36,094 nt of DNA. Origin: Bacillota bacterium (GTDB lineage Bacteria > Bacillota > Halanaerobiia > B1SED10-174). This document shows positions 19,479 to 35,702 of this stretch, one piece after another. Below the pieces are notes generated by a model. That model did no database searches and was not told the DNA's origin. It saw only the letters and a program-made list of their open reading frames with translations. The stretch is from NCBI GenBank assembly GCA_007122335.1, contig SKTZ01000155.1, forward strand, positions 1 through 36,094, written 5' to 3'. Both the position numbers and the translations under genes were made by a program. Every line of letters starts with the position of its first letter. Within the stretch, counting starts at the first letter, position 1.

Positions 19479-19759
19479 GAACAATCCCAACTAAAAAACT
19501 CCAACTTATTCAATTGGGCTTCCTTATTTTTCGAGACTTTTCTCAGTCCCAAAAAAAAGGAGCCCATCTTTATTTTCTTCCTTTTCAAAATCTTCGCTTT
19601 ATTAACAATATTCTGATTTTTTGGCAGGATTTTACCAAACCCTGTCGAAATATTCATTTACCGCTAGACTGGCAGAAAATTAATTCTCTAAACTAACAAG
19701 CTGGTTCCTCAGGAAAACATATGTCCGTCTGCGGCAATAAATAAAAGGAGGAGATTTTG

Positions 19760-20893
19760 TTGGCCAAGAAAATGCGTCTTGTTTTGATCCTGCTAGCCTT
19801 CCTTTTGGTTTTCTCGGGGACCAGTTTTGCTGATGAAGTACCCATTGGGGTTTATGAGCCCCTAACCGGTCCCATGGCAGCAGGAGGGCAGATGACACTG
19901 GAGGGAATCAGGCTTGCCCATGAATTGTATCCTACTGTCCTTGGAAAAGAGGTCCGCCTTTTTGTCGAAGATAACAAAACCGACAAGGCAGAAGCAGCGT
20001 TAACAGTAAGTCGTTTGATTGAGCTGCGTAATGTTGTGGCCATTGTAGGAACCTACGGGAGTTCACTCGCCATGTCCGGAGGTCCTGTTGCTGAAACTGC
20101 CGGCATTCCTGTAATGGGATGCTCTCCCACCCACCCCCTGGTTACCCAGGGCAATGACTACTATTTCCGGGCCTGCTTTATTGACCCCTTCCAGGGTTAT
20201 ATCATGGCAACCTATGCGTACGAAACACTCGGTGCTCGCAAAGTTGCTATTCTCCAGGATATTGCCCAGGATTACAGTGTAGGTCTGGCCCACTTCTTCC
20301 GGCAGGCTTTTGTTGAACTAACCGGGGATCCGACCTCCGTCGTGGGCATGTCTTCCTACCAGACTCTTGATACTGACTTTACCGCTCAGCTGACCTACCT
20401 GCGGGGCCTAGATCCTGATGCCATTTTTGCTCCCGGGTACTATGGAGACGTGGCACTTCTGGTTACTCAAGCCAGGGAACTGGGTATTGGTGTTCCCTTC
20501 CTCGGTGGGGATGCCTGTGAAGCTCCCGAATTTATTGAAATCGGGGGAGCCTACGTGGAAGGCGTAGCCATCAGCACCCACTACAGCGCGGATGCTCCCG
20601 TAACAGATGAGTCTTCCAAGTTCGTAGCCGCCTTTATCGAAAAATATGGCCATAGCCCCAGCGCCTTCGCAGCCCTGGGCTACGATGCTTATCGCTTGAT
20701 CCTGGATGCCATTGAAAGAGCGGGATCTACCGATCCCGGGGCAATTAGGGATGCGCTCGCTGAAACCTACCGGTTTGAAGGTGCAACCGGTTATATCACC
20801 ATGGATGAAGACGGAAACGCCGTTAAGACCGGAGTAATTCTGGAAGTAAAAGATGGCGAATTCGTATATGGCGGCTCAGTAGAACCCAGGTAA
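19760..20893 (+). CDS. livK: Branched-chain amino-acid-type ABC transporter substrate-binding protein
   Basis: A 377-residue extracytoplasmic binding protein of the Leu/Ile/Val-binding (type I periplasmic) family. A signal peptide (residues 1-22, ending SGTSFA before DEV) is followed by PIGVYEPLTGPMAAGGQMTLEGIRLA and the ADNKTD-like EDNKTD region. The ALTVSRLIE and VVAIVGTYGSS segments match the ligand-binding fold. There is no lipobox cysteine, unusual for a monoderm. Two TTG codons (19757, 19760) follow an AGGAGGAG site; 19760 has the better spacing, and an ATG at 19772 is too far. The ligand cannot be read; family members bind branched-chain amino acids, urea, amides and other small polar molecules. 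It starts the livKHMGF operon. Confidence 0.92.
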   Translation: MAKKMRLVLILLAFLLVFSGTSFADEVPIGVYEPLTGPMAAGGQMTLEGIRLAHELYPTVLGKEVRLFVEDNKTDKAEAALTVSRLIELRNVVAIVGTYGSSLAMSGGPVAETAGIPVMGCSPTHPLVTQGNDYYFRACFIDPFQGYIMATYAYETLGARKVAILQDIAQDYSVGLAHFFRQAFVELTGDPTSVVGMSSYQTLDTDFTAQLTYLRGLDPDAIFAPGYYGDVALLVTQARELGIGVPFLGGDACEAPEFIEIGGAYVEGVAISTHYSADAPVTDESSKFVAAFIEKYGHSPSAFAALGYDAYRLILDAIERAGSTDPGAIRDALAETYRFEGATGYITMDEDGNAVKTGVILEVKDGEFVYGGSVEPR

Positions 20894-20920
20894 AACCCAC
20901 ATCAGAAGGGAGTTGTTGGT

Positions 20921-21820
20921 ATGACTCTTACCCATTTCTTTCAACATCTCGCCAATGCGGTTTACCTGGGGTCACTTTACGCACTGATTGCAATAGGCTA
21001 TACAATGGTCTACGGTATTCTGCGGTTAATCAATTTCGCCCACGGCGAGTTGTTGATTGTTGGTGCATTCATCGCTTATTACGGAATCCTTATTTTTCAC
21101 TTACCCTGGTGGCTTTCCTTCATTATCGCGATCGCACTAGGAGCTCTAGTAGGGATGAGTCTGGAAAGAGTGGCTTACCGACCTCTCCGAGAGCGTGGGG
21201 CTCCAAGAATTTCTCTTCTCGTATCGGCAATTGGGGCCTCCTTTTTTCTGCAGAATCTGGGTCTAGTAATAATTGGGGGGCGGCACAAATCATTTTACCG
21301 CCCTCCTTTCTTTGCTCAGACCCTGCAGTTAGGTGATGTCACTGTAATGAATTTCCTTTTCATTCTCCCCATAATTACTATTATCATTCTGGGAATTGTT
21401 TTTCTCCTGGTATATCGTTCAAAAACGGGGATGGCCATGCGGGCTCTTGCCAAAGATTATCCTACAGCGCGCCTGATGGGAATTAACATTAACCGGATCA
21501 TTGCCTATACTTTTGCTCTCGGATCAGCCCTCGCAGCAATCGGGGGGATTATGTATGCCCTCCGTTATCCAGCCATTCACCCTTTGGCGGGAGTTCTCCC
21601 CGGACTGAAATGTTTTATTGCAGCAGTTGTCGGGGGGATTGGTAATGTGCCCGGGGCGGTTCTCGGGGGTTTCATCCTGGGGATGCTGGAAATAATGGGG
21701 ATTGCCTTTTTCCCACACCTTGCTGGTTATCGGGATGCTATAGCCTTCATTGTCCTGATTATTATTCTTTCCTTCAAGCCAACAGGGTTGCTGGGAGAAC
21801 AAGTTGTGGAGAAGGTGTAG
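20921..21820 (+). CDS. livH: Branched-chain amino-acid-type ABC permease LivH
   Basis: A 299-residue inner-membrane permease with about eight hydrophobic segments. It starts with the typical LANAVYLGSLYALIAIGYTM and VYGILRLINFAHGEL, and contains MRALAKDYPTARLMGININ (the coupling helix that contacts the ATPases), then GLKCFIAAVVGGIGNVPGAV, a hallmark of LivH. It pairs with LivM to form the transmembrane channel. The ATG has an AAGGGAG-type site, 27 bp after livK. It is three bases from livM, so co-translation is likely. Confidence 0.93.
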   Translation: MTLTHFFQHLANAVYLGSLYALIAIGYTMVYGILRLINFAHGELLIVGAFIAYYGILIFHLPWWLSFIIAIALGALVGMSLERVAYRPLRERGAPRISLLVSAIGASFFLQNLGLVIIGGRHKSFYRPPFFAQTLQLGDVTVMNFLFILPIITIIILGIVFLLVYRSKTGMAMRALAKDYPTARLMGININRIIAYTFALGSALAAIGGIMYALRYPAIHPLAGVLPGLKCFIAAVVGGIGNVPGAVLGGFILGMLEIMGIAFFPHLAGYRDAIAFIVLIIILSFKPTGLLGEQVVEKV

Positions 21821-21823
21821 CCT

Positions 21824-22885
21824 ATGACCAAACAGCGAAAACTAATTCTTCTTGTTGGAGCATTGATTGTCAGCAGTTTTTTGATTTATGCTAATTTTTT
21901 CTTTGATCCCTACGTACTCAGGATTCTAAACCTGATAGCGATTTACATGAGTGCTGCTCTTGGGTTAAGCCTGATCAACGGCTTTACAGGCCAGTTTTCC
22001 CTCGGAATAGCCGGGTTCATGGCTGTGGGTGGTTATGCAGCCTCTCTTTTAACTCTACCCATTTCTGTAAAAGAGTCAATATTTTTTATCAGGCCCCTGA
22101 TCTGGCCCTTTAACAGTCTCGAGCTTCCCTTCATCGTTGGGATCCTGTTTGCTGCTGTCATGACGGCCATATTTAGCTTCCTTATCGGCTTTCCCGTTCT
22201 TCGCCTGCGGGGTGATTACCTGGCCATAGCCACCCTGGGCTTTTCAGAGGTTATTCGGGTGGTTTCAACCAATACGATTACCATCACCAACGGAGCCCTG
22301 GGCTTGAAGGGGATTCCAGCCTTCACCAATATCTGGTGGTCCTTCGGTTTTGCCGGCTTCTCCCTTTTTGTCATCTGGCGGCTGATAAACAGCAGTTATG
22401 GGCGGGCTTTCAAAGCAATTCGGGATAATGAAATGGCTGCAGAAGCCATGGGAATTGCCCTATTCAAAAACAAACTGCTCGCTTTTGTTATCGGTTCGAC
22501 GCTTGCAGGTATAGCCGGCGCATTGCTGGCTCACCTCCTGACCGCAATCGACCCCGCTATGTTCAGGTTCTTCCTCACATTCAATGTTCTGTTGATGATT
22601 GTCCTCGGGGGTATGGGCAGCATTACTGGAGCAGTCCTCGGCGCGACTATAGTAACCTTTTTATTTGAATTTCTGAGGTACCTGGATTCCCCTATGGAAT
22701 GGGGTTTCATTACAATTCCTGGAGCTCCCGGGTTGCGTATGGTAATTTTCTCCACCCTTCTAATTATCATGATCCTTTTCCGAAGGCAGGGGTTAATGGG
22801 CGACCGGGAACTGAGTTTGGCCTGGATTGAAAAAAGTTTCTCCAGGATCTTCCACAGAAGGGGTGGTGGAAATGGCAATTCTTAA
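21824..22885 (+). CDS. livM: Branched-chain amino-acid-type ABC permease LivM
   Basis: A 353-residue permease, the LivH partner. Landmarks are ALGLSLINGFTGQFSLG, then RLRGDYLAIATLGFSEVIRV (conserved LivM segment), FKAIRDNEMAAEAMGI (ATPase-coupling helix) and LLMIVLGGMGSITGAVLGA. About ten hydrophobic segments are present. It begins three bases after livH, and its last 14 bases overlap the livG start, a compact operon layout. The C-terminus is basic (KSFSRIFHRRGGG). Substrate choice lies mostly with the binding protein. Confidence 0.93.
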   Translation: MTKQRKLILLVGALIVSSFLIYANFFFDPYVLRILNLIAIYMSAALGLSLINGFTGQFSLGIAGFMAVGGYAASLLTLPISVKESIFFIRPLIWPFNSLELPFIVGILFAAVMTAIFSFLIGFPVLRLRGDYLAIATLGFSEVIRVVSTNTITITNGALGLKGIPAFTNIWWSFGFAGFSLFVIWRLINSSYGRAFKAIRDNEMAAEAMGIALFKNKLLAFVIGSTLAGIAGALLAHLLTAIDPAMFRFFLTFNVLLMIVLGGMGSITGAVLGATIVTFLFEFLRYLDSPMEWGFITIPGAPGLRMVIFSTLLIIMILFRRQGLMGDRELSLAWIEKSFSRIFHRRGGGNGNS

Positions 22886-23642
22886 GCTCGACCAGGTAAC
22901 GAAAAGGTTTGGAGGTCTCGTTGCCCTAAAAGATTTCAACGCAAACCTGGAAGAAGGTGAAATTGTTGGCCTGATCGGTCCTAACGGGGCCGGAAAAACC
23001 ACCGCCTTTAATGTAATAACCGGGGTTTATAAACCGGAGCAGGGGCGGGTAACCTTTAACAGCAGGGATATTACAATGCTGAAAGCCCATCCCCGCACAG
23101 CAATGGGAATCTGCAGAACTTTCCAGAACATTAGACTATTCGACCAGATGACCGTGCTGGAAAATATCCTGGTGGCAATGCACATCCGGTTGAAAAAATC
23201 AATATTTTCCGTTGTCGCTGGCTCTCCGGGTTACCAGAAAAGGGAAAAGGAAATGAAAGAAGAAGCCTTTGAACTGTTAAGGTACGTCAACCTTGACCAC
23301 CTGGCGGATGAAAGGGCACCCAATCTCCCTTACGGCCAACAGCGGCGCCTGGAGATTGGCCGAGCCCTGGCAACCAACCCCAAACTCCTGTTACTAGATG
23401 AGCCGGCAGCGGGAATGAACCCTCAGGAAACTGCTGAACTCATGGAGTTCATTAACAAAATTCAGGGTGAGTTCAAGCTAACAATCTTTATTATCGAACA
23501 TCAGATGATGGTAGTAATGGGAATCTGCAAGCGGATCCTGGTCCTGGATTACGGTTTAACCATTGCCCAGGGAACACCTAAGGAAATCCAAAATAATCCC
23601 AAGGTAATAGAAGCCTACCTGGGGGTGAAAGACAGTGCTTGA
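22872..23642 (+). CDS. livG: Branched-chain amino-acid-type ABC ATPase LivG
   Basis: A 256-residue ATP-binding subunit. It has the Walker A motif GPNGAGKTT, the signature LPYGQQRRLEIGRAL and the Walker B LLLLDEPAAGMN, with the H-loop in IIEHQMMVVMG. The NIRLFDQMTVLENILVAMH segment is characteristic of LivG. The ATG at 22872 has a GGGGTGGTGG site; the frame stays open 45 bases earlier, inside livM, but family alignments start at MAILKLDQVTKRFGG. It forms a heterodimer with LivF and powers the transporter. It overlaps livF by eight bases. Confidence 0.94.
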   Translation: MAILKLDQVTKRFGGLVALKDFNANLEEGEIVGLIGPNGAGKTTAFNVITGVYKPEQGRVTFNSRDITMLKAHPRTAMGICRTFQNIRLFDQMTVLENILVAMHIRLKKSIFSVVAGSPGYQKREKEMKEEAFELLRYVNLDHLADERAPNLPYGQQRRLEIGRALATNPKLLLLDEPAAGMNPQETAELMEFINKIQGEFKLTIFIIEHQMMVVMGICKRILVLDYGLTIAQGTPKEIQNNPKVIEAYLGVKDSA

Positions 23643-24348
23643 GCTAAAGGATGTTCATGTATATTACGAAGGTATCCATGCTTTAAAGGGGATATCTTTA
23701 AAAGTTGAAGAAGCCAGCATTGTCACCCTGATTGGAGCAAACGGAGCGGGAAAAAGTACCACTCTTAAAGCAATCTGCAATATGGTTCCCTATGAAGGCA
23801 CAATTAGTTTAAGGGGACAAGATTTACGAAAAATTAAAACCCACGAAATTGTGCGCCTGGGTATGACCATGGTTCCCGAGGGGAGAAGGATTTTCACCAA
23901 TCTAAACGTCATGGAAAATCTCCTTTTGGGGGCTTATGCCCGAAGGGAATCTAAAAAAGTCGAGGAGGACCTGGAATGGGTTTTTTCCCTATTCCCCCGG
24001 TTAAAAGAACGCCATAAACAGCAGGGGGGAACTCTTTCCGGCGGAGAACAGCAGATGCTGGCTCTGGGGCGGGCTTTAATGTCCAAACCAAAACTTCTTC
24101 TTATGGATGAACCTTCCCTGGGCCTTGCCCCACTATTGGTCCAGGAAATTTTTAAAATGATTGAGACCATCCACAAAGAAAAGGTAACTATTCTCCTGAT
24201 TGAACAAAACGCTCACATGGCTTTAAAGGTTGCGGATTACGGTTACGTCCTGGAAACAGGGACTGTTGCCATTGAAGGGCCCGGGAAAGAGCTTGTTGAT
24301 AGTCCCAAGGTCAAAGAAGCCTACCTGGGCCGGGAAGTAGAAGTTTAA
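23635..24348 (+). CDS. livF: Branched-chain amino-acid-type ABC ATPase LivF
   Basis: A 237-residue ATP-binding subunit. It has the Walker A motif GANGAGKST, the signature LSGGEQQMLALGRAL and the Walker B LLLMDEPSLGLAP. The phrase MVPEGRRIFTNLNVMENLLLGAY is diagnostic of LivF. The GTG start at 23635 lies inside the end of livG and is preceded by GGGGGTG. It is the last gene of the transporter operon; two hairpins follow before the glyA homologue. Confidence 0.94.
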   Translation: MLELKDVHVYYEGIHALKGISLKVEEASIVTLIGANGAGKSTTLKAICNMVPYEGTISLRGQDLRKIKTHEIVRLGMTMVPEGRRIFTNLNVMENLLLGAYARRESKKVEEDLEWVFSLFPRLKERHKQQGGTLSGGEQQMLALGRALMSKPKLLLMDEPSLGLAPLLVQEIFKMIETIHKEKVTILLIEQNAHMALKVADYGYVLETGTVAIEGPGKELVDSPKVKEAYLGREVEV

Positions 24349-24386
24349 TTCAGGGGGTTAAATTAGAAAACCCCCAGTCCTGAATC
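24346..24386 (+). repeat. First of two tandem hairpins after livF
   Basis: ATTCAGG and CCTGAAT form the outer stem, with GGGTT and AACCC inside around an A-rich loop. It begins at the livF stop and directly abuts the terminator hairpin. It could be an alternative structure that alters termination, or just a mRNA 3' end stabiliser. Confidence 0.5.
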
Positions 24387-24387
24387 A

Positions 24388-24425
24388 ATAAGAGGAGGGG
24401 GCTATAGCCCCTCCTCTTATTTTTC
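24388..24425 (+). terminator. Terminator between livF and the glyA homologue
   Basis: ATAAGAGGAGGGG pairs perfectly over 13 bp with CCCCTCCTCTTAT around a seven-base loop, and TTTT follows. This should end the liv transcript or attenuate read-through into the glyA homologue, which starts 40 bases later with its own ribosome site. Confidence 0.9.
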
Positions 24426-24464
24426 CACTGCGGGGGTAACCCTGTTTTATGGGAGGAATGAAGG

Positions 24465-25727
24465 ATGAAAAAATTAGCTTCAGTTGACCCTGAAGCAGCT
24501 CGCCTTGTTGAAGCCGAGCTGTACAGGCAGAATACCAACCTGGAATTAATAGCCTCGGAAAATTTCGTCTGTGAAGCTATCCTGGAAGCCCAGGGTTCTA
24601 TTCTTACCAATAAGTATGCTGAAGGATATCCGGGCAAACGTTATCATGGTGGCTGTGAACACATTGATAAAATTGAAGAGCTGGCAATTAAAAGAGCCTG
24701 TGACCTTTTTGGGGCTGAACACGCAAACGTTCAACCTCATTCTGGAGTAAATGCCAATCTGGCTGCCTACATGGCACTTATCAACCCCGGAGATACTATC
24801 CTGGGAATGCTCTTACAACACGGGGGGCACCTCTCCCATGGAAGTAAGGCGAGCATCACGGGTAATTTTTACAGGGGAGTTTTTTATGGTGTCAGCCCCG
24901 ACACGGAAATAATTGATTATGATGGAGTTGAAGAAATAGCAAAAAAACACCGACCCCGGCTTATTGTTGCAGGAGGCAGTGCATATCCCAGGCAAATTGA
25001 TTTTGCCAGGTTTAGAGAAATTGCCGATCAGGTTGGAGCTTTCTTTCTGGTGGACATGGCCCATATCGCGGGATTAATTGCTGCAGGACTTCACCCCAGT
25101 CCGGTGCCCCACGCCGATGTTGTTACAAGTACGACCACCAAGACAATGCGGGGAGCCCGGGGAGGTTTCATCCTTGCTGGAAAGAAATGGGCCAGTGCTA
25201 TTGACAGGGCTATTTTCCCCGGAACTCAGGGAGGGCCTATCCTGCAGAACGTTCTGGCCAAGGCCGTTACCTTCCGCATGGCCATGACCCAGGCATTTAG
25301 ACAGTACCAGGGCCAGGTGAAGAGTAACGCAGCTTTTTTAGCAGATCGCTTACAGGAAAAGGGCCTGCGGATTGTTTCGGGGGGAACTGATAACCACCTG
25401 ATGCTGGTTGATCTCCAGACTGCAGATTTAACCGGTCAAAAAGCAGAGGAAATCCTGGGGAGCATCGGTATTACCGTAAATAAAAACCTGATACCTTTTG
25501 ATTCAAGGCCTCCCACAGTAACGAGCGGAATCAGGATCGGGACGGCAGCCATAACCTCCCGGGGAATGAAAGAAAGGGAAATCGAGGAAATTGCCACAAT
25601 TATTTTTTCTGCCCTCCAGGAAGGAACCTCCCTAGATCCTGCTCCTTACCGCAGAAAGGTCCATGATTTGTGCCAGCGGTTTCCCCTGTACCTTGACCCC
25701 CTGGAATTTGCTTGCCTCCAGCCCTGA
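24465..25727 (+). CDS. glyA: Serine hydroxymethyltransferase homologue with altered active site
   Basis: A 420-residue PLP enzyme of the SHMT family, which normally interconverts serine plus tetrahydrofolate with glycine plus methylene-THF. The family signature is present ([40 protein letters not shown]), and the Schiff-base lysine is Lys226. Several residues that are nearly constant in SHMT differ. The TTHK motif is TTTK (Thr225 for the His equal to E. coli His228). KRYYGG is KRYHGG (His61 for Tyr65). SGSQAN is SGVNAN (Val95 for Ser99). GMNLAHGGH is GMLLQHGGH. It might therefore be a paralogue with another substrate, such as an alpha-methyl amino acid, or an aldolase. It follows the liv operon and its terminator. 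Start ATG 24465 has an AGGAATGAAGG site. Confidence 0.85.
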
Positions 25728-25779
25728 CTTAGCTTTCACCCAAGAATGGACCCGGGTAATATAAATGAGTAAAAGCCAC

Positions 25780-26520
25780 CTAATCACGTTCAGGGATTAA
25801 TCGCAGGCTTTTATCCAGGTACCTGTAATGTTCCCAGAGGTGTTCAACCTGCCTGCGCAATACTTTTCTGGCCGTCCATTTTTCTCCTGGGTCAAGTGTA
25901 GGATAAAGAGTCGGGATGTATACCTTGTTGCTTTCTCCCTCTTTTATCTTTTCCAGTAGGAAGATCCGGGCTTTTTCATGGAAAAACTCTATCCGGTTTA
26001 ACTCATTAAGGTTATTATCAGCCCACTGGTCAACCTTCTGATCAATTCTGCTGCAATACCACCAGACTGTATTTCCAATATGTTGGAGGGTTTCCTGCAA
26101 ACTCCTTCGATTAGAATTGGGTTGAAACTCAAACTCCTCTTTACTTAAACCCTCCACCCTGTTCTCTATTTCCTGGCGGATATAGCCGGCAACTGTAAAA
26201 GCTTCTTCAACATTCCGTTTCGAGAGTTCGTTTTTATCGGAAGAAAAAAGGGCCATTGGAGCCCCTGATGCGCCCACTTCACCGGCACTATTTCTTACAA
26301 ATTCTGCCACTTTTATTTCCCCCGGCTCCGGGATTTCAATTCCTGGATCCCATTTTTTCCGAAACCTGATAAATTTTTCTACCTCTTTTTTCGAATTATT
26401 TACAACTTCCCGGGAAGTATTTCCCAACCAGCAACATCCCCAACTTCCTGCCCAGTGACCCATGCACATCCCCCTGGGGCCCTGTTCAAGTTGAATTTCT
26501 ATTACATTTATCGAAGACAA
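25780..26520 (-). CDS. DinB-family protein with an N-terminal HicB-like segment
   Basis: A 246-residue protein. The C-terminal part (about residues 110-240) is a DinB/YfiT-like four-helix bundle with the candidate metal ligands His142 in LQHIGNTVWWY and the His pair in VEHLWEHYRYL. Such proteins are often thiol-dependent transferases. The N-terminal 60 residues, with GSWGCCWLGNTSREVVNNSKK, resemble a HicB-type fold (the G-x-x-G-x-T-x-x-E-x-x-x-N pattern), so this may be a fusion. The TTG start at 26520 has GGGGAGG seven bases upstream. A linker (about 60-90) joins the two parts. Substrate and biological role are unknown. Confidence 0.75.
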   Translation of the reverse strand: MSSINVIEIQLEQGPRGMCMGHWAGSWGCCWLGNTSREVVNNSKKEVEKFIRFRKKWDPGIEIPEPGEIKVAEFVRNSAGEVGASGAPMALFSSDKNELSKRNVEEAFTVAGYIRQEIENRVEGLSKEEFEFQPNSNRRSLQETLQHIGNTVWWYCSRIDQKVDQWADNNLNELNRIEFFHEKARIFLLEKIKEGESNKVYIPTLYPTLDPGEKWTARKVLRRQVEHLWEHYRYLDKSLRLIPERD

Positions 26521-29686: not shown

Positions 29687-29725
29687 GTATTTAAACAACT
29701 TTCACCATTTTAGAAGGAGGTTAAA

Positions 29726-31816
29726 ATGAAAAAAATTACTGTTATTTCTCTTGTCTTCCTTGCAATGGTCCTACTTAGTTCTTCAATTAGCGCCGCCCTT
29801 CTCTCTGAAGAAGCAATTGATGCTATCAAAAGCGAGGGGTTTTTGGCAAATGTTGACGACGGTTATTTAACTTATGCAGAATTCAAAGAACTGGTTGCTG
29901 CGGCTTTCCCCGGAAAAGAAAATCTTATTTCTGGAGATGGCTTTGTAACAAGATCTGATTTTATCGTTTCCCTGGTTGAAGTTTTGGGTCTTCAGGGAGA
30001 GGCTGCAAAATTCGATGAAGTGCGGACCATGGCCTTTGATGAAGATCAGGTTCCTGAACCTGCCATTGGGGCTTTTTCCCTAGCCTTTCAGAGCAACCGC
30101 CAGTTAATGACCTACCGCTACGGGCATATCCTTCAACCTGAAGAGCCAATAACAAGGGAGGAAGCTGCTCACGCCGTATACATGGCTTTGAACCCTCCTC
30201 AGCAAGGTGGGCGAGCTGTTACTGCCGTTACTGCTGACGCCCCGGGTTTTAATACTCTTTTCACTTCTGCCGGGCTGGTCTGGACTCTTAACAATATTAT
30301 TGGCGATGGGTATATTGGAACGAACCAGGACGGTTATTACCATCCCCGGATGATCCGCAGAATGCCCACTCTGGAAAATGGATTGATGCAAATCAATTCG
30401 GATGGCACAATGTCAATTACCTACGAACTGCGCTCGGGGATGAAATGGCATGATGGTGAACCCGTAACCGCAAACGATGCTAAATTCCAGTGGGAAGTTA
30501 TGACTTCCGGAGCCCCTGTTACATCTTCTTACTATGAACACAATGTTAATGAAGTTGAAATCCATGATGATCTAACCTTTACAATCCACCTGGATGATGT
30601 CGTTGGGAACGCCGAATTTGGTTCCTCGGGCTATGCTTATTACTTCGGGTGGTTTCAGCTTCCCGAACATAAATTTAAGGATGCCTTTGAAGAAGCCAAA
30701 AATTCAGGGAATTGGGATTCATTTGTCGATTTTGTAAATCAAAATCCCATCATGACCGGTCCTTACAAGTTCAAGGAATATCGTGAAGGTGAAAGAATTG
30801 TCATTGAAGCTTTTGAAGATTATTTTATGGGCAGACCAAATATCGATGAAATCGTCATCCGAATTGTTCCGGATAGTGATGTAGTCTTTGCTTCTACTCT
30901 TGCAGGTGAAATCGACTTTGGCAGGTACACCCTTACCCTGCAGCAGAGCCTGCAGCTGGAAAGAGAACGTCCAGAACTATTCGAAACCTACTACACTCCT
31001 AACGTTGCAGTAGACATGGTTTTCCTTAATTTCAACGATCCCGACAATCTAGCTGAACCCCATCCCATATTTGGTGATCCCCGGGTTCGGCAGGCCATCC
31101 TCATGGCCCTTGATCGAGATCGCTTGAACCAGATCGTTTATTTTGAACTGGCAGATCCCGCTCATACCTGGATCACCCCCCTTCATTCCATGCGGGAAGC
31201 CCTGGACGGAGCAACTGAGTACTCCTATGATCCCAACGGGGCTCAAGAACTATTAGCAGAAGCCGGCTGGGAAATGAACCCCCAGGGCTTTTTAGAAAAA
31301 GATGGTCGGGTTTTCGAATTCACCCTGGCTGGTATGGCCGGAAGTCGGGAACAGGAAATTGCTTCCCAGCTTATCCAGGCAATGCTGCGGCAGGTCGGAA
31401 TCTCGGTAAAGGTTGACCTTAAACCCGCCCAGGTTGTCTGGGCCAATGTTATGCCCTACCGGGAATTCGATGCCCTACTCAGCGGATGGGGTTACGGGAT
31501 TTCCTGTGAAGCCCTGAATTACTGGCACACCAGCAGCATTCCTTCCGAGGCTAATTCCTGGGGAGGGACAAATTATGCCGGCTGGGCCAATCAGGAAAAC
31601 GACGAAATTATTGAAAAAGCAGCAAGAGAACTGGACCCGGAGAAAAAGGCGGAACTCTACAGGGAACACTTTGCTCTCTGGACCCACTATCTGCCCGTCC
31701 TTCCACTTTATTCAGCTCCAACCCCTCACTTCGCTAAAGCCGACATCAAAAGTTTCAATTCAGGTTATGATAATGGCCTGGGCTGGATAATCTACAACTG
31801 GTATTTTCAACAGTAA
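29726..31816 (+). CDS. SLH-domain-fused peptide/nickel-type ABC substrate-binding protein
   Basis: A 696-residue exported binding protein. A signal peptide (residues 1-23, ending ISA before ALL) is followed by an SLH region (about 25-155). Its best repeat ends YGHILQPEEPITREEAAHAV, with the canonical F-x-P-x-x-x-I-T-R-x-E pattern. From about 170 to the end the protein is an SBP_bac_5 (OppA/DppA) domain, starting FNTLFTSAGLVWTLNNI and containing LRSGMKWHDGEPVTANDAKF. There is no lipobox, so anchoring to the cell wall through the SLH domain replaces lipidation. The ATG at 29726 has a GAAGGAGG site. It heads an operon with a peptidase and OppBC. The peptide ligand is inferred from neighbours. 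Confidence 0.88.
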   Translation: MKKITVISLVFLAMVLLSSSISAALLSEEAIDAIKSEGFLANVDDGYLTYAEFKELVAAAFPGKENLISGDGFVTRSDFIVSLVEVLGLQGEAAKFDEVRTMAFDEDQVPEPAIGAFSLAFQSNRQLMTYRYGHILQPEEPITREEAAHAVYMALNPPQQGGRAVTAVTADAPGFNTLFTSAGLVWTLNNIIGDGYIGTNQDGYYHPRMIRRMPTLENGLMQINSDGTMSITYELRSGMKWHDGEPVTANDAKFQWEVMTSGAPVTSSYYEHNVNEVEIHDDLTFTIHLDDVVGNAEFGSSGYAYYFGWFQLPEHKFKDAFEEAKNSGNWDSFVDFVNQNPIMTGPYKFKEYREGERIVIEAFEDYFMGRPNIDEIVIRIVPDSDVVFASTLAGEIDFGRYTLTLQQSLQLERERPELFETYYTPNVAVDMVFLNFNDPDNLAEPHPIFGDPRVRQAILMALDRDRLNQIVYFELADPAHTWITPLHSMREALDGATEYSYDPNGAQELLAEAGWEMNPQGFLEKDGRVFEFTLAGMAGSREQEIASQLIQAMLRQVGISVKVDLKPAQVVWANVMPYREFDALLSGWGYGISCEALNYWHTSSIPSEANSWGGTNYAGWANQENDEIIEKAARELDPEKKAELYREHFALWTHYLPVLPLYSAPTPHFAKADIKSFNSGYDNGLGWIIYNWYFQQ

Positions 31817-31850
31817 ATAAAGGGGGGAGCTTCCTCCCCCCTTTATTCAA
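31816..31850 (+). terminator. Attenuator-like hairpin after the SLH-binding protein gene
   Basis: AATAAAGGGGGGAG pairs perfectly over 14 bp with CTCCCCCCTTTATT around CTTC. The following T-tract is interrupted (CAATATTTT), so partial read-through is expected. This fits high production of the binding protein relative to downstream genes. Confidence 0.8.
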
Positions 31851-31886
31851 TATTTTCCTAACAATCCATTTAAAAGGAGCATTAAA

Positions 31887-33251
31887 ATGAAATTTGAACC
31901 CCTGGGAAAACTTATCCCGGACTATTCCCGTTTTTTTACAGTTGACGAACACAATGAAAGGTCTTTTGAGCTGGTCAAGAAATATCCCAAAACAGTTCGA
32001 ATTAGCCATGAAGGAACATCAAGGGCAGGAGATAAAATTCCAGTTCTGGAAATCGGAAACGGGTCCCGACATGCCCTCCTTTTTGGCTGTCCCCACCCTA
32101 ACGAACCTATTGGAGCCATGATGCTTGATACCCTCTGTAATTTACTTGCGGGAGAAGAAGACCTGTTAAAAGAACTCGACTACACCTGGCATATTGTTAA
32201 AGTAATAGATGTAGACGGAACAAGGTTGAATGAGGGCTGGTTTGATAAAAAGGATTCTATTGAAAGTTACGCAGAAAATTTTTACCGGCCCCCGGGTTAC
32301 AAGCAGGTAGAGTGGACCTTTCCCGTCCAGTATAAAACATTGAATTTCCAGTCTCCTCTTCCGGAAACCAAACTTCTCATGGAGTTAATCGAAACCTACA
32401 AACCTGATTTTATGTACTCCCTGCACAACTCAGGATTCGGAGGCGCCTACTACTATATTTCCGGAGACAGTCCCGAGCTTTACCCCCACCTGCACAGTAT
32501 CCCGAAGAAATTTGGGGTTCCCCTTTCCCTTGGAGAACCTGAGGTACCTTTCTTTGAGCACCTGGCTCCTGCAATTTTCAAGTTATTCTCCTCTAAAGAA
32601 CTTTATGATCACCTGGCCAAACATACTGACAAAGACCCGGCCCAAATCCTGCGGATGGGAGCGGGTTCAGATGAGTACGCAGAAAGGATCTGTAAGACCT
32701 ACTCCCTCGTTACTGAAGTCCCCTATTTTTATGATAGCAGGGTGGAAGACCAAACCGAGCTTGAAATCACCCGCAGGGAATCCCTATTGGCTAACTTAAA
32801 AAGACAGAAGGATTACCTTTCTCTCTTGGAGTCAATAATGGTTAAGGCAGGAGATTTTCTTGATAAAGATTCCCCATTTTTTTTCCCAATAAACGAGGTT
32901 TTGGAAACCGGAGCTGAGAGCCTGAAAGCTGATGAAAACTGGATCCAGTCCGATGAAAAACTAAATCGCCCAGCCACCGCTGCTGAAAATTTTGACAACC
33001 AAAATGTGAGCGAATTTTACCGTTCCCTTTCCCTGGGAATGTTAAGGAGACTGATGCAAGCAAGCAGGGAAAAATTCGGTTCGGAGGACAAAATCCTCCA
33101 GGCCTCTAAAGAGGCTGACCTGGCCTTCTCCAACCAAATTAAACTCCTGAACAACAATTTGAATTATAAGGCAATTCCAATAAAAAATCTGGTAGGAATT
33201 CAACTTTTAACCGGCCTTTATACTGCCAAATACGTCCAGGAGAACAGGTGA
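31887..33251 (+). CDS. M14-family zinc carboxypeptidase-like protein
   Basis: A 454-residue predicted zinc metallopeptidase of the carboxypeptidase A (M14) clan. The first zinc-binding pair is H-x-x-E at His70/Glu73 (CPHPNEPIG), the third ligand is His180 (YSLHNSGFGG), and the general-base Glu is probably Glu277 (VTEVPYF). There is no signal peptide, so it acts in the cytosol, unlike digestive M14 enzymes. The C-terminal 170 residues are helical and of unknown role. It lies between the peptide-binding protein and the oppB gene, with four bases to oppB, suggesting that it trims imported peptides. ATG 31887 has an AAAGGAG site. Confidence 0.85.
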   Translation: MKFEPLGKLIPDYSRFFTVDEHNERSFELVKKYPKTVRISHEGTSRAGDKIPVLEIGNGSRHALLFGCPHPNEPIGAMMLDTLCNLLAGEEDLLKELDYTWHIVKVIDVDGTRLNEGWFDKKDSIESYAENFYRPPGYKQVEWTFPVQYKTLNFQSPLPETKLLMELIETYKPDFMYSLHNSGFGGAYYYISGDSPELYPHLHSIPKKFGVPLSLGEPEVPFFEHLAPAIFKLFSSKELYDHLAKHTDKDPAQILRMGAGSDEYAERICKTYSLVTEVPYFYDSRVEDQTELEITRRESLLANLKRQKDYLSLLESIMVKAGDFLDKDSPFFFPINEVLETGAESLKADENWIQSDEKLNRPATAAENFDNQNVSEFYRSLSLGMLRRLMQASREKFGSEDKILQASKEADLAFSNQIKLLNNNLNYKAIPIKNLVGIQLLTGLYTAKYVQENR

Positions 33252-33255
33252 TTTC

Positions 33256-34230
33256 ATGAAAAAATATTTAATCCGCCGGCTTCTTGAAGTAATCCCCATC
33301 CTGCTTTTTATTTCTATATTAATATTCGTGATTTTAAACGCCATGCCCGGCGATGCGCTGCTGCAAATGCGGATGGAAAACCCCCGGGCCTTTGCCAATG
33401 ACCCTGCAGCCCTGGAAAAACTCCGAGCCCATTATGGGTTAGATCAGCCAGTTTACGTCAGGTACGGGGTCTGGCTTGGAAAAATGCTGCAGGGTGATCT
33501 GGGTTATTCAAGCACCTACCGGGTCCCGGTATTAAATCTTCTGAAATCCCGGATTCCCAATACCCTTTTTCTCACAATTACAGCCTGGTTAATTGGCCTG
33601 GTGGTTGCCCTTCCTATCGGGATATATTCGGCAATAAAGAAATATTCAGCTTTCGACTTTCTGGCAACGGGCTTTGCCTTTGTGGGGATATCCCTCCCCC
33701 ACTTCTGGTTTGCTCTGATGGCAATTATAGTTTTTTCGGTTCACCTGGGCTGGTTACCCATTTCCGGAATGTCTTCCTACGGGCTTACCGGAACCTGGGA
33801 GATTTTCCTTGACCGTTTCCGACATCTTATTTTACCCGCCTGTATATTGGGTTTTGTCCAGGTAGCCTACTGGGTCCGGTATATTCGGACTGCCTTAATT
33901 GAAGTAATGAATATGGATTACATCCGAACTGCTTATTCCAAGGGTATCACCCGGAAAAAAGTAATTTTCAAACACGCTTTAAAGAATGCTTTAATCCCTA
34001 TTATTACCATCCTGGCCCTTGATATCCCCTATTTTTTCGGGGGGGCAGTTATTGTGGAAACAGTTTTTTCCTGGCCGGGGATGGGGCGATTAATGTACCA
34101 GGCCGTTTTGGGTAGTGATCATAACCTCGCGATCAACTGCCTGATATTCCTGGCCCTGATAACACTTCTTTCCAACCTGATGGCAGACTTTTTATACGCA
34201 TTCGTTGATCCCAGGATCCGCTACAACTAA
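33256..34230 (+). CDS. oppB: Peptide ABC transporter permease OppB/DppB
   Basis: A 324-residue inner-membrane permease of the OppB/DppB type with six hydrophobic segments. The N-terminus LIRRLLEVIPILLFISILIF is typical, and the EAA-like coupling segment is YIRTAYSKGITRKKVIFKHA. The C-terminus ends DFLYAFVDPRIRYN, as in family members. It partners the next gene. The ATG has an AGGAGAACAGGTG site, and the stop overlaps the next open frame. Confidence 0.93.
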   Translation: MKKYLIRRLLEVIPILLFISILIFVILNAMPGDALLQMRMENPRAFANDPAALEKLRAHYGLDQPVYVRYGVWLGKMLQGDLGYSSTYRVPVLNLLKSRIPNTLFLTITAWLIGLVVALPIGIYSAIKKYSAFDFLATGFAFVGISLPHFWFALMAIIVFSVHLGWLPISGMSSYGLTGTWEIFLDRFRHLILPACILGFVQVAYWVRYIRTALIEVMNMDYIRTAYSKGITRKKVIFKHALKNALIPIITILALDIPYFFGGAVIVETVFSWPGMGRLMYQAVLGSDHNLAINCLIFLALITLLSNLMADFLYAFVDPRIRYN

Positions 34231-34244
34231 TGGGGGTGTTCACA

Positions 34245-35153
34245 ATGCCTGGAAAAAAACAAATTAAAACTGATGATCCTGTTCACATAGCAGGTTACTG
34301 GCAGCTGGTCTGGAAACAATTTCGCCAGCATAAATTGGCCTTAATTGGGGGAGTGATTTTTCTTTTCCTTATCCTCTTTACTGTTGCCGGACCATTTTTT
34401 GTTCCCCATAAATATGGGGATATGAATTTTATGGCCATATTTGCTCCTCCTCTAACCGAAGAGCATCTCATGGGAACCAACGAACTGGGTCAGGATGTCC
34501 TGGTCCGGGTTATGTACGGAGGCCGAATCTCCCTGATGGTTGGTTTCATTGCAGCTAGCCTGAGTGTTAGTATTGGGACCACAATTGGCCTGCTTTCAGG
34601 GTTTTTTGGGGGAAATGTTGACCGGATCCTGATGCGACTTGTGGACGTTATGCTTTCTATCCCCATGTTCCCCGTACTTTTAACCCTGACCCTGGTTTTT
34701 GGATCAGGACTGAGGAATGTAATACTGGTTCTGACCCTGTTTGGCTGGATGGGAGTAGCAAGGCTTGTCAGGGGGACGGTTCTTTCTCTACGGGAAACAG
34801 AATATGTCATGGCTGCGCGAGCTCTTGGGGCAAGGAATTCCGGAATTATCCTCCGCCATATCTTCCCCAATGTCCTCCCAATTATTATCGTTTCCGCAAC
34901 TTTGAACATTTCATTTGCAATTCTAGCAGAATCCTCCTTAAGTTACCTGGGCCTGGGAATTCAACCTCCTACCCCCTCCTGGGGAAATATGCTGCAAAAT
35001 TCCCTGAATTATATGCTGGGGACAGCTCATGGAGTATCGCCCTGGTGGCTTACCTTTTTCCCGGGATTTTTAATTTTCTTAACCGTCTTAAACATAAATT
35101 TTTTAGGAGACGGACTGCGGGATGCTCTGGACCCAAAAGTAATGAAGAAATAA
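34245..35153 (+). CDS. oppC: Peptide ABC transporter permease OppC/DppC
   Basis: A 302-residue permease of the OppC/DppC type. It has the N-terminal soluble section, then LALIGGVIFLFLILFTVAG. LMGTNELGQDVLVRVMYGGRI is a conserved OppC segment, and the EAA motif VMAARALGARNSGIILRHIF follows. I choose the ATG at 34245 because GGGGGTG lies six bases before it; an ATG at 34230 overlaps the oppB stop and would add five residues. A terminator follows directly, and no OppD/OppF ATPase genes are present. Confidence 0.93.
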   Translation: MPGKKQIKTDDPVHIAGYWQLVWKQFRQHKLALIGGVIFLFLILFTVAGPFFVPHKYGDMNFMAIFAPPLTEEHLMGTNELGQDVLVRVMYGGRISLMVGFIAASLSVSIGTTIGLLSGFFGGNVDRILMRLVDVMLSIPMFPVLLTLTLVFGSGLRNVILVLTLFGWMGVARLVRGTVLSLRETEYVMAARALGARNSGIILRHIFPNVLPIIIVSATLNISFAILAESSLSYLGLGIQPPTPSWGNMLQNSLNYMLGTAHGVSPWWLTFFPGFLIFLTVLNINFLGDGLRDALDPKVMKK

Positions 35154-35237: not shown

Positions 35238-35702
35238 ATGGAAAGAATGGATTCTTTTTGCGGATTGTACTGTGGGGCCTGTGATATTTTCCTGGCCCGC
35301 AGGAAGGGTACGCTCGCTGAACTCGCCAGAAAGTGGGGTAGAACAGAAAAAGATTTAACCTGCAACGGTTGTAAAACTGAAATTGTTTCCCTTTACTGCC
35401 AGAAATGTCCCATAAAGGTTTGTGCTCTAGCAAAAAAGCTTGATTATTGTTTCCAATGCTCACTTTTCCCCTGCAAGGAAGTGGTGGAATTTAATAATGA
35501 TCAGCACCCTCATCATTCCATCGTCCTGTTTAATCTTGCTTTGCTAAGAGAAAAAGGAACAGAGGAATGGCTTTGTGAGCAGGAAAAAAGGTGGAAATGC
35601 CCGAACTGTGCTTCCCCTTTTTCCTGGTACGATGAAATATGCCCTGCCTGCAGTACTCGGGTAAAAAGCTGCAGGGCCGAGGAAAAAGAAATGGGAACTT
35701 AA
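35238..35702 (+). CDS. DUF3795 family protein with C-terminal zinc ribbon
   Basis: A 154-residue cysteine-rich protein. The N-terminal DUF3795 domain begins CGLYCGACDIFLARRKG and continues CNGCKTE, CQKCPIKVC and CFQCSLFPC. A separate C-terminal zinc ribbon reads WKCPNCASPFSWYDEICPAC (about residues 123-142). Both parts probably bind zinc. It is cytosolic. The ATG has a GGGGATCC-type weak site with AAAGG just upstream. This is the third DUF3795 gene of the window. It stands alone after the opp terminator. Confidence 0.83.
   Translation: MERMDSFCGLYCGACDIFLARRKGTLAELARKWGRTEKDLTCNGCKTEIVSLYCQKCPIKVCALAKKLDYCFQCSLFPCKEVVEFNNDQHPHHSIVLFNLALLREKGTEEWLCEQEKRWKCPNCASPFSWYDEICPACSTRVKSCRAEEKEMGT

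Follow-up and report, generated by a model that had tools for sequence, protein, structure and literature searches.

How can a solute-binding protein (SBP) be kept in place if it has no lipid anchor, and can an SLH domain serve as its tether? In diderm cells, the SBPs of ABC importers are usually pictured as free in the periplasm. The window, that is, the whole stretch of 36,094 nucleotides analysed here, is the whole of contig C22 of a genome of 2.41 Mb in 157 contigs (97.84% complete), and one of its genes raises this question. The sequence-only reading of the gene had claimed a signal peptide without a lipobox, an SLH region with an I-T-R-x-E motif and a full SBP_bac_5 domain, and had proposed that the protein is held on peptidoglycan or its secondary polymer instead of by a lipid anchor, possibly in the periplasm of a diderm Firmicute.

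Several parts of this description were borne out. By eye, the N-terminus reads as a signal peptide (MKK, a hydrophobic core, then ISA before the next A), its residues 1-23 are cysteine-free, and no lipobox is seen in any of 21 aligned orthologues. A few of their signal peptides do have a cysteine, and the nearest lipobox-like stretch among them is F-V-A-C at residue 10 of the L123 sequence. The motif is present as I-T-R-E-E. The SBP_bac_5 domain is full (residues 225-591; E 1.5e-72, 245 bits against a Pfam cut-off of 32.4, and 246.7 bits in a search of the own genome), and the closest solved relatives of this part, 2d5w and AppA 1xoc, are both named peptide binders. NCBIfam places Opp4A, Opp4B and Opp4C nearest to the proteins of the operon, none of them over its own cut-off. 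The SLH and SBP parts are connected via a short linker, so that access to the permease from the wall becomes a steric question. The features of the locus are collected in Table 1.

Table 1. Features read at the SLH-SBP locus, in positions of the window
Feature	Position	Strand	Basis and remarks
Ribosome-binding site AAGGAGG	29714..29720	+	Read from sequence
SLH-SBP gene, 696 aa, ATG start	29726..31816	+	Open reading frame and translation
Signal peptide, residues 1-23, without cysteine or lipobox	29726..29794	+	By eye
Reduced SLH trimer (N-domain, 135 residues), residues 24-158	29795..30199	+	Fold match of the model, long-form orthologues, profile comparison
Repeat 1 core-helix start LTYAEF, residues 48-53	29867..29884	+	Alignment; Y, F, W or A replaces the TRAE arginine
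Repeat 2 core-helix start VTRSDF, residues 74-79	29945..29962	+	Alignment; Arg76 in 21/21
Repeat 3, sole full-length repeat, residues 103-156, I-T-R-E-E at 142-146	30032..30193	+	Pfam, alignment
Short-form signature Q-L-[LM]-x-[YF]-R-Y-G-[HQ], residues 126-134, repeat 3 loop	30101..30127	+	Alignment
SBP_bac_5 domain	30398..31498	+	Pfam
14-pair stem-loop, possible attenuator	31816..31847	+	Pattern match; directly after the SBP stop
M14-family zinc peptidase, 454 aa, no signal peptide seen	31887..33251	+	Pfam Peptidase_M14, 28 bits, cut-off 21.6
OppB-type permease	33256..34230	+	Pfam/NCBIfam
OppC-type permease	34230..35153	+	Pfam/NCBIfam
DUF3795 protein, directly after oppC	35238-35702	+	Pfam

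Is the N-domain really derived from SLH? On the window protein alone, the Pfam SLH model (PF00395) reaches 12.4 bits (E 0.16), under its cut-off of 20.8, and residues 25-155 thus give no significant SLH match; to this extent the SLH claim of the sequence-only reading fails, while it stands by fold match, by orthologues and by profile. The orthologues come in two forms. Of the short form, to which the window protein belongs, none of 21 sequences reaches the cut-off and three give any SLH match, whereas all five long-form orthologues pass it with 51-71 bits, with the SLH match ahead of SBP_bac_5. A profile of the N-domain, searched against 398 genomes from the phylum to which G162 belongs, matched 25 genomes at E <=0.001: five with the long-form orthologues (E 1.1e-25 to 4.7e-32) and 20 more weakly, and the best five of these 20 are all SLH proteins with SLH scores of 60-111 bits, matched inside their SLH regions. 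A weak match to this profile was also seen at L185 (positions 178-2007, + strand), where Pfam finds a Shr-like haemoglobin-interacting domain together with three SLH stretches.

The predicted fold points in the same direction. An AlphaFold model of the N-domain from five sequences had a pLDDT of 64.7 and a pTM of 0.66 in the best of five models, two of the five being near 40 and pLDDT falling below 50 over domain residues 68-111; a full-length model from six sequences was unusable (pLDDT 35.2). When the N-domain model was compared with solved structures by Foldseek, ranks 1-9 were all SLH domains at probability 0.99-1.00, with a best E of 7e-3 and no match below E 0.001. By VIA-align, ranks 1-13 were the SLH domains of Sap and SpaA, with Z 10.2-11.1 over 103-127 aligned residues, and the top value of 11.1, over 127 of 138 residues, was obtained with 3pyw and 6bt4, to be read with the moderate quality of the predicted model. 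Rank 14 was an S-layer cytochrome (Z 8.0), and the first unrelated chain followed at Z 4.6. As predicted, the N-domain would be a pseudo-threefold trimer of helix pairs.

The N-domain profile found nothing significant among PDB sequences (VirB8 E 0.34, Sap E 0.59 and 0.68). A profile of proteins with three SLH repeats was then made from nine Halanaerobiia proteins, chosen from 17 SLH proteins that themselves came from 30 loci, with L144 and L151 excluded for a cut N-terminus. Aligned to it by hhalign, the 21-row N-domain covered 117 columns (score 32.7, probability 50, P 1.6e-4), with the three TRxE-type helix starts all in register. The score was reached by none of 200 column shuffles (maximum 21.7), by one of 200 block shuffles (39.6), and not by the reversed query (11.0). 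A single-SLH profile of the OmpM type, made from six sequences, did not match the N-domain in hhalign (E 0.075, probability 0.7).

It is to be noted that a weak EF-hand match outscores SLH both on the whole protein (E 0.028 vs 0.16) and on the N-domain alone (E 0.0014 vs 0.0063). Could the N-domain then be another helical module, of an EF-hand-like kind, that just resembles SLH? The EF-hand_1 match lies at residues 45-58, and EF-hand folds do occur in the list of VIA-align matches; their Z is about 3, however, while SLH folds reach 10-11 over most of the domain, the EF-hand match is confined to one of the 21 members, and the long-form orthologues have clear SLH repeats. This reading is largely refuted, and it was rejected on the fold scores; we regard it as scarcely credible. 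A Glycos_trans_3N match (E 0.0017) in a single member was taken as chance. Because of the fold match, the SLH repeats in the long form and a profile that finds real SLH proteins, the N-domain is SLH-derived: an SLH trimer that in the short form has drifted beneath the standard model. Because the PF00395 cut-off fails, we do not call the domain of the window protein a member of Pfam SLH.

How far has the trimer departed from a canonical one? Residues were counted in the 21 short-form orthologues, and the assignment of repeats is our own, made from hhalign and the model. The short form is about 50 residues shorter ahead of the second core helix, and the first helix of repeat 2 appears largely absent, although MAFFT and hhalign differ in where they put the gap near repeat 1 and the beginning of repeat 2. 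The TRAE-type arginine is found in 0/21 sequences in repeat 1, in 21/21 in repeat 2, where Gly70 ahead of it is equally invariant, and in 10/21 in repeat 3; there the other 11 have lysine at position 144, and T143 and E146 are kept in all 21. The loop of repeat 3 has the short-form signature in place of the canonical SLH GIIxG; its Q126, R131, Y132 and G133 are invariant in the 21 short forms, and the five long forms keep Q, R and G, with Y in three of them. Low ratios of dN/dS in the N-domain of five close pairs (0.133, 0.046, 0.124, 0.113 and 0.059, vs 0.016-0.041 in the SBP part) show that the domain evolves under purifying selection.

As described in the accessible part of PMC6081394, a functional SLH groove requires Gly29 of one repeat, Trp13 of the next and Arg43 of the third, and this set predicts an SCWP site. 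By our assignment of repeats, it is complete in none of the three grooves (in repeat 3, 5/21 sequences have W at the Trp13 position). Since the predictive residues are incomplete in every groove, we infer binding to the wall or its polymer and do not read it from the residues. Has the trimer, then, left wall binding behind to become a docking module or spacer, for instance for the SLH of an OmpM-like porin, for the permease or for some partner? The incomplete grooves, the shortening before the second core helix and the replacement of the repeat 3 loop motif all fit such a change. On the other hand, in the long forms each of the three repeats has a TRxE-type arginine and Gly29 is missing as well (by eye), so that the odd site is common to the whole family and looks like a family trait, not like decay in the line of the window. 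In addition, the accessible text of PMC10628300 reports wall binding by Negativicutes OmpM with deviating residues, and deviation therefore need not mean loss. We judge the docking reading unlikely, though of some weight, and prefer to see a wall tether in the N-domain.

In what kind of envelope would such a tether work? The nearest loci, L001-L005, are in MAGs of Halobacteroidaceae (order Halanaerobiales) at 79-97% identity, and the Halanaerobiales lineage is described as diderm in the part of PMC5007114 available to us. Two partial Omp85 matches on two contigs of the genome agree with this, and the diderm host suspected at the outset is thus supported. Omp85 was also found in all five carriers of the other Bacillota group and in the single Thermotogota-group carrier examined (G084, at a modest 31 bits), making 7/7 carriers examined with the window genome included. 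It was not found in G162, the only non-carrier examined (6/7 genomes in that test were positive), and one non-carrier is too few for a rule. For a possible polymer ligand, the genome has one pyruvyl transferase that matches the CsaB equivalog TIGR03609 (251 bits, cut-off 213.1), encoded beside a TagA/WecG-family gene. Two clear SLH loci are present in it. One is a frame truncated at the contig end, at least 526 aa long (SLH 32.5 bits), which we read as OmpM-like. The other (L160, G000:C66:2214-2336) encodes 268 aa and combines a single SLH repeat with a long coil and, by eye, a C-terminal hydrophobic stretch; it resembles the Thermotoga OmpA1 spacer in plan.

The claim that SLH stands here instead of a lipid anchor had been made by contrast with the lipoproteins of Gram-positive bacteria, and this contrast does not hold. 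Of 20 other SBP_5 frames read in the window genome, 19 have a readable N-terminus and the remaining one is truncated by a contig edge; a 144-aa fragment on contig C89 was left out of the lipobox reading. No lipobox was seen by eye in any of the 19, which is what a diderm would be expected to show, and the SLH part therefore adds a tether and replaces no lipid anchor. Judged from their N-termini, the other SBP_5 proteins are probably free in the periplasm, and SLH-SBP, also the longest SBP_5 frame of the genome (700 aa vs 506-584 for the 19), would be the exception. The proper contrast is therefore between a tethered SBP and SBPs free in the periplasm.

With a diderm host, an SLH-derived domain and an SBP without lipobox, a periplasmic wall tether becomes the leading idea. 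SLH is reported to anchor OmpM and OmpA1 in the diderm periplasm, as far as the accessible parts of PMC10628300 and PMC3387000 go. Export to the cell surface, with the SBP acting outside within the S-layer, would suit the proteins from which SLH is best known (PMC6081394, accessible part). The signal peptide is the only export feature seen, however, the gene is encoded together with inner-membrane permeases, and the SLH of OmpM in diderm Firmicutes is described as facing the periplasm in the available text of PMC5007114, all of which makes the surface reading very improbable.

What does the operon tell about the cargo? Two cognate permeases adjoin the SBP, with Pfam matches to BPD_transp_1 and OppC_N, and the full order is SBP, cytoplasmic M14 peptidase, OppB, OppC and often OppD/OppF. 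In the M14 protein H70, E73, H180 and E277 are invariant in 12/12 aligned sequences, and we take them to be the zinc and catalytic residues of M14. A stem-loop between an abundant SBP and its permeases is a common arrangement, and the one found here, read from the sequence by pattern, may be an attenuator. OppD/OppF ATPases were found 3' of OppC neither in the window, up to the contig end at 36094, nor at the related locus L003. Therefore, the genus either relies on ATPases encoded elsewhere or has an impaired importer; an importer in use is favoured by the low dN/dS and by reading frames that are open. The DUF3795 gene sits where relatives in the Thermotogota group have two Opp-type ATPases, and L003 too has a gene of similar size after oppC.

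Our preferred reading, which we hold to be fairly probable, is that SLH-SBP is the periplasmic peptide-binding protein of an Opp/Dpp-type importer, and that a reduced SLH trimer fastens it to peptidoglycan or its polymer. Once the protein is exported, its SLH part would bind peptidoglycan or a glycopolymer linked to peptidoglycan, and would thereby keep the SBP at the wall near the inner membrane, where a free protein would diffuse through the periplasm. The SBP part would capture a peptide and pass it to OppB/OppC at the inner membrane, with ATPases presumably encoded, in the genus of the window, at another place in the genome; the imported cargo would then be trimmed in the cytoplasm by the M14 peptidase.

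A survey of the architecture across genomes, which the sequence-only reading had called for, recovered the operon in three groups: a genus of Halanaerobiales, a phylum of Thermotogota type and five other Bacillota. In the class of the window, a strong N-domain match was found in 3/59 genomes, all of them in the genus of the window. G018 and G028 also gave partial matches over the first 55-65 residues (E 0.006 and 0.001, respectively), which would bring the tally to 5/59 and which we put down to chance. In a fourth genome of this genus the C-terminal part of the gene lies at a contig edge, and the fifth has no close copy. In the MAG T1Sed10_148, three versions of the SLH-SBP gene are seen (L002, L003 and L004). 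The frame at L003 starts MEILDLQEEAAHAV near a contig edge, and reads as though repeat 3 had been attached to the tail of repeat 2, by an internal deletion or an assembly join.

The second group belongs to the phylum of the L006 genome, which was taken as Thermotogota by its Kosmotogaceae label. There 22/103 genomes match, with one match each, G083 matching through just 22 residues at the edge of a contig. In the 19 of these 22 genomes whose neighbourhoods were read (L106-L124), the M14 gene directly follows the SBP in all 19, OppB and OppC come next in 18 (L120 ends earlier), and two ABC ATPase genes come next in 16, the remaining three hitting the contig edge; by Pfam, the pair is ABC_tran with oligo_HPY in one locus (L106). 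In the five loci of the Bacillota group, M14, again directly after the SBP, and OppB are present in all, OppC in four (in the fifth locus the contig stops short of it), and two of the five loci have OppD/OppF upstream. Identity to the window in the Thermotogota group is 54-62% for the SBP, 52-56% for M14 (11 aligned) and 66-72% for OppB, and in the Bacillota group 54-55%, 47-49% and 57-60%, respectively. The N-domain gave no match in five genomes of other groups (L007, L008, L013, L019 and L033), an empty result that shows little.

How did one operon come to be shared by such distant hosts? Transfer between phyla is the simplest account, and the uneven spread, the only ground for a direction, suggests Thermotogota as the source. 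In a tree of 25 SBP domains the four rows of Halobacteroidaceae form one clade (98/98); the outgroup branches are 5.7 and 6.25 long and the root is unplaced. In a plasmid collection, 3172 records match SLH-SBP, all below 60% identity, and the best ten of them cover residues 152 or later only, which is the SBP part. G+C over the operon (window 30001-35000) is 0.45-0.47 vs about 0.41 just upstream, but it is equally high at 19500-26000, and the rise alone is thus no proof of transfer. Elsewhere in the window, positions 19757-24348 (+ strand) probably encode a branched-chain amino-acid importer, with a Peripla_BP_6 SBP by Pfam at 19757-20893 followed by genes whose size and order alone suggest permeases and ATPases, and a serine hydroxymethyltransferase comes after this cluster (24465-25727).

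Compared with the family 5 SBPs of Opp, Dpp and App systems, SLH-SBP has the same SBP_bac_5 family and permeases alongside, while it differs in the N-terminal SLH trimer, the longer frame and the M14 peptidase gene between the SBP and the permeases. With OmpM and OmpA1 (Omp-alpha) it would share an SLH module that works as a tether inside the periplasm; its C-terminal part, however, is SBP_bac_5 where theirs is a barrel or a coiled coil, and its chain has three repeats, as in S-layer proteins, where theirs has one. Sap and SpaA, SLH-anchored surface proteins of Bacillota, have the same three-repeat fold and are the closest solved structures, whereas the trimer of SLH-SBP is shorter, at 135 residues (146-178 for the SLH chains listed), its residues for pyruvyl-ManNAc are incomplete, and its cargo is a transport receptor. 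In E. coli, murein tripeptide is taken up by MppA with Opp, and MpaA is a cytoplasmic peptidase of M14 type; MppA is not known to have an SLH part. The operon resembles this system in joining a peptide SBP, Opp permeases and a cytoplasmic M14 peptidase, with general M14 similarity only, and by this analogy an uptake of murein peptides is possible.

A bolder version, which we think quite doubtful, is that the family is a distinct SLH class in which R76 and Q-L-L-x-Y-R-Y-G-H bind peptidoglycan itself and no pyruvylated polymer, as part of a wall-docked importer for recycling murein peptides that three diderm lineages share by transfer. If so, the receptor would sit where the wall turns over and gather the freed wall peptides, and the cytoplasmic M14 peptidase would recycle them.

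None of the titles and abstract openings listed from the open-licence literature describes an SLH-SBP fusion; this literature, searched without an architecture database, gives weak evidence of absence. In the accessible parts of four papers, SLH and SBPs are on separate proteins (PMC4867992, PMC3039559, PMC5382914 and PMC5256962). Thus, known parts, namely SLH, SBP_5, Opp permeases and M14, are found here in a conserved combination for which the same literature yielded no description. What can this family teach us? Found in separate diderm lineages together with permeases and a peptidase of its own, this conserved SLH-SBP family makes a case for testing wall-parked receptors, and it bears on the ligand of a non-canonical SLH trimer and on the benefit of tethering in a wide periplasm like that of Thermotogales. 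The OmpA1 spacer holds the sheath of T. maritima about 50 nm off the cell, according to the accessible part of PMC3387000, and in so wide a periplasm a tether would, by analogy, keep the receptor near its permease.
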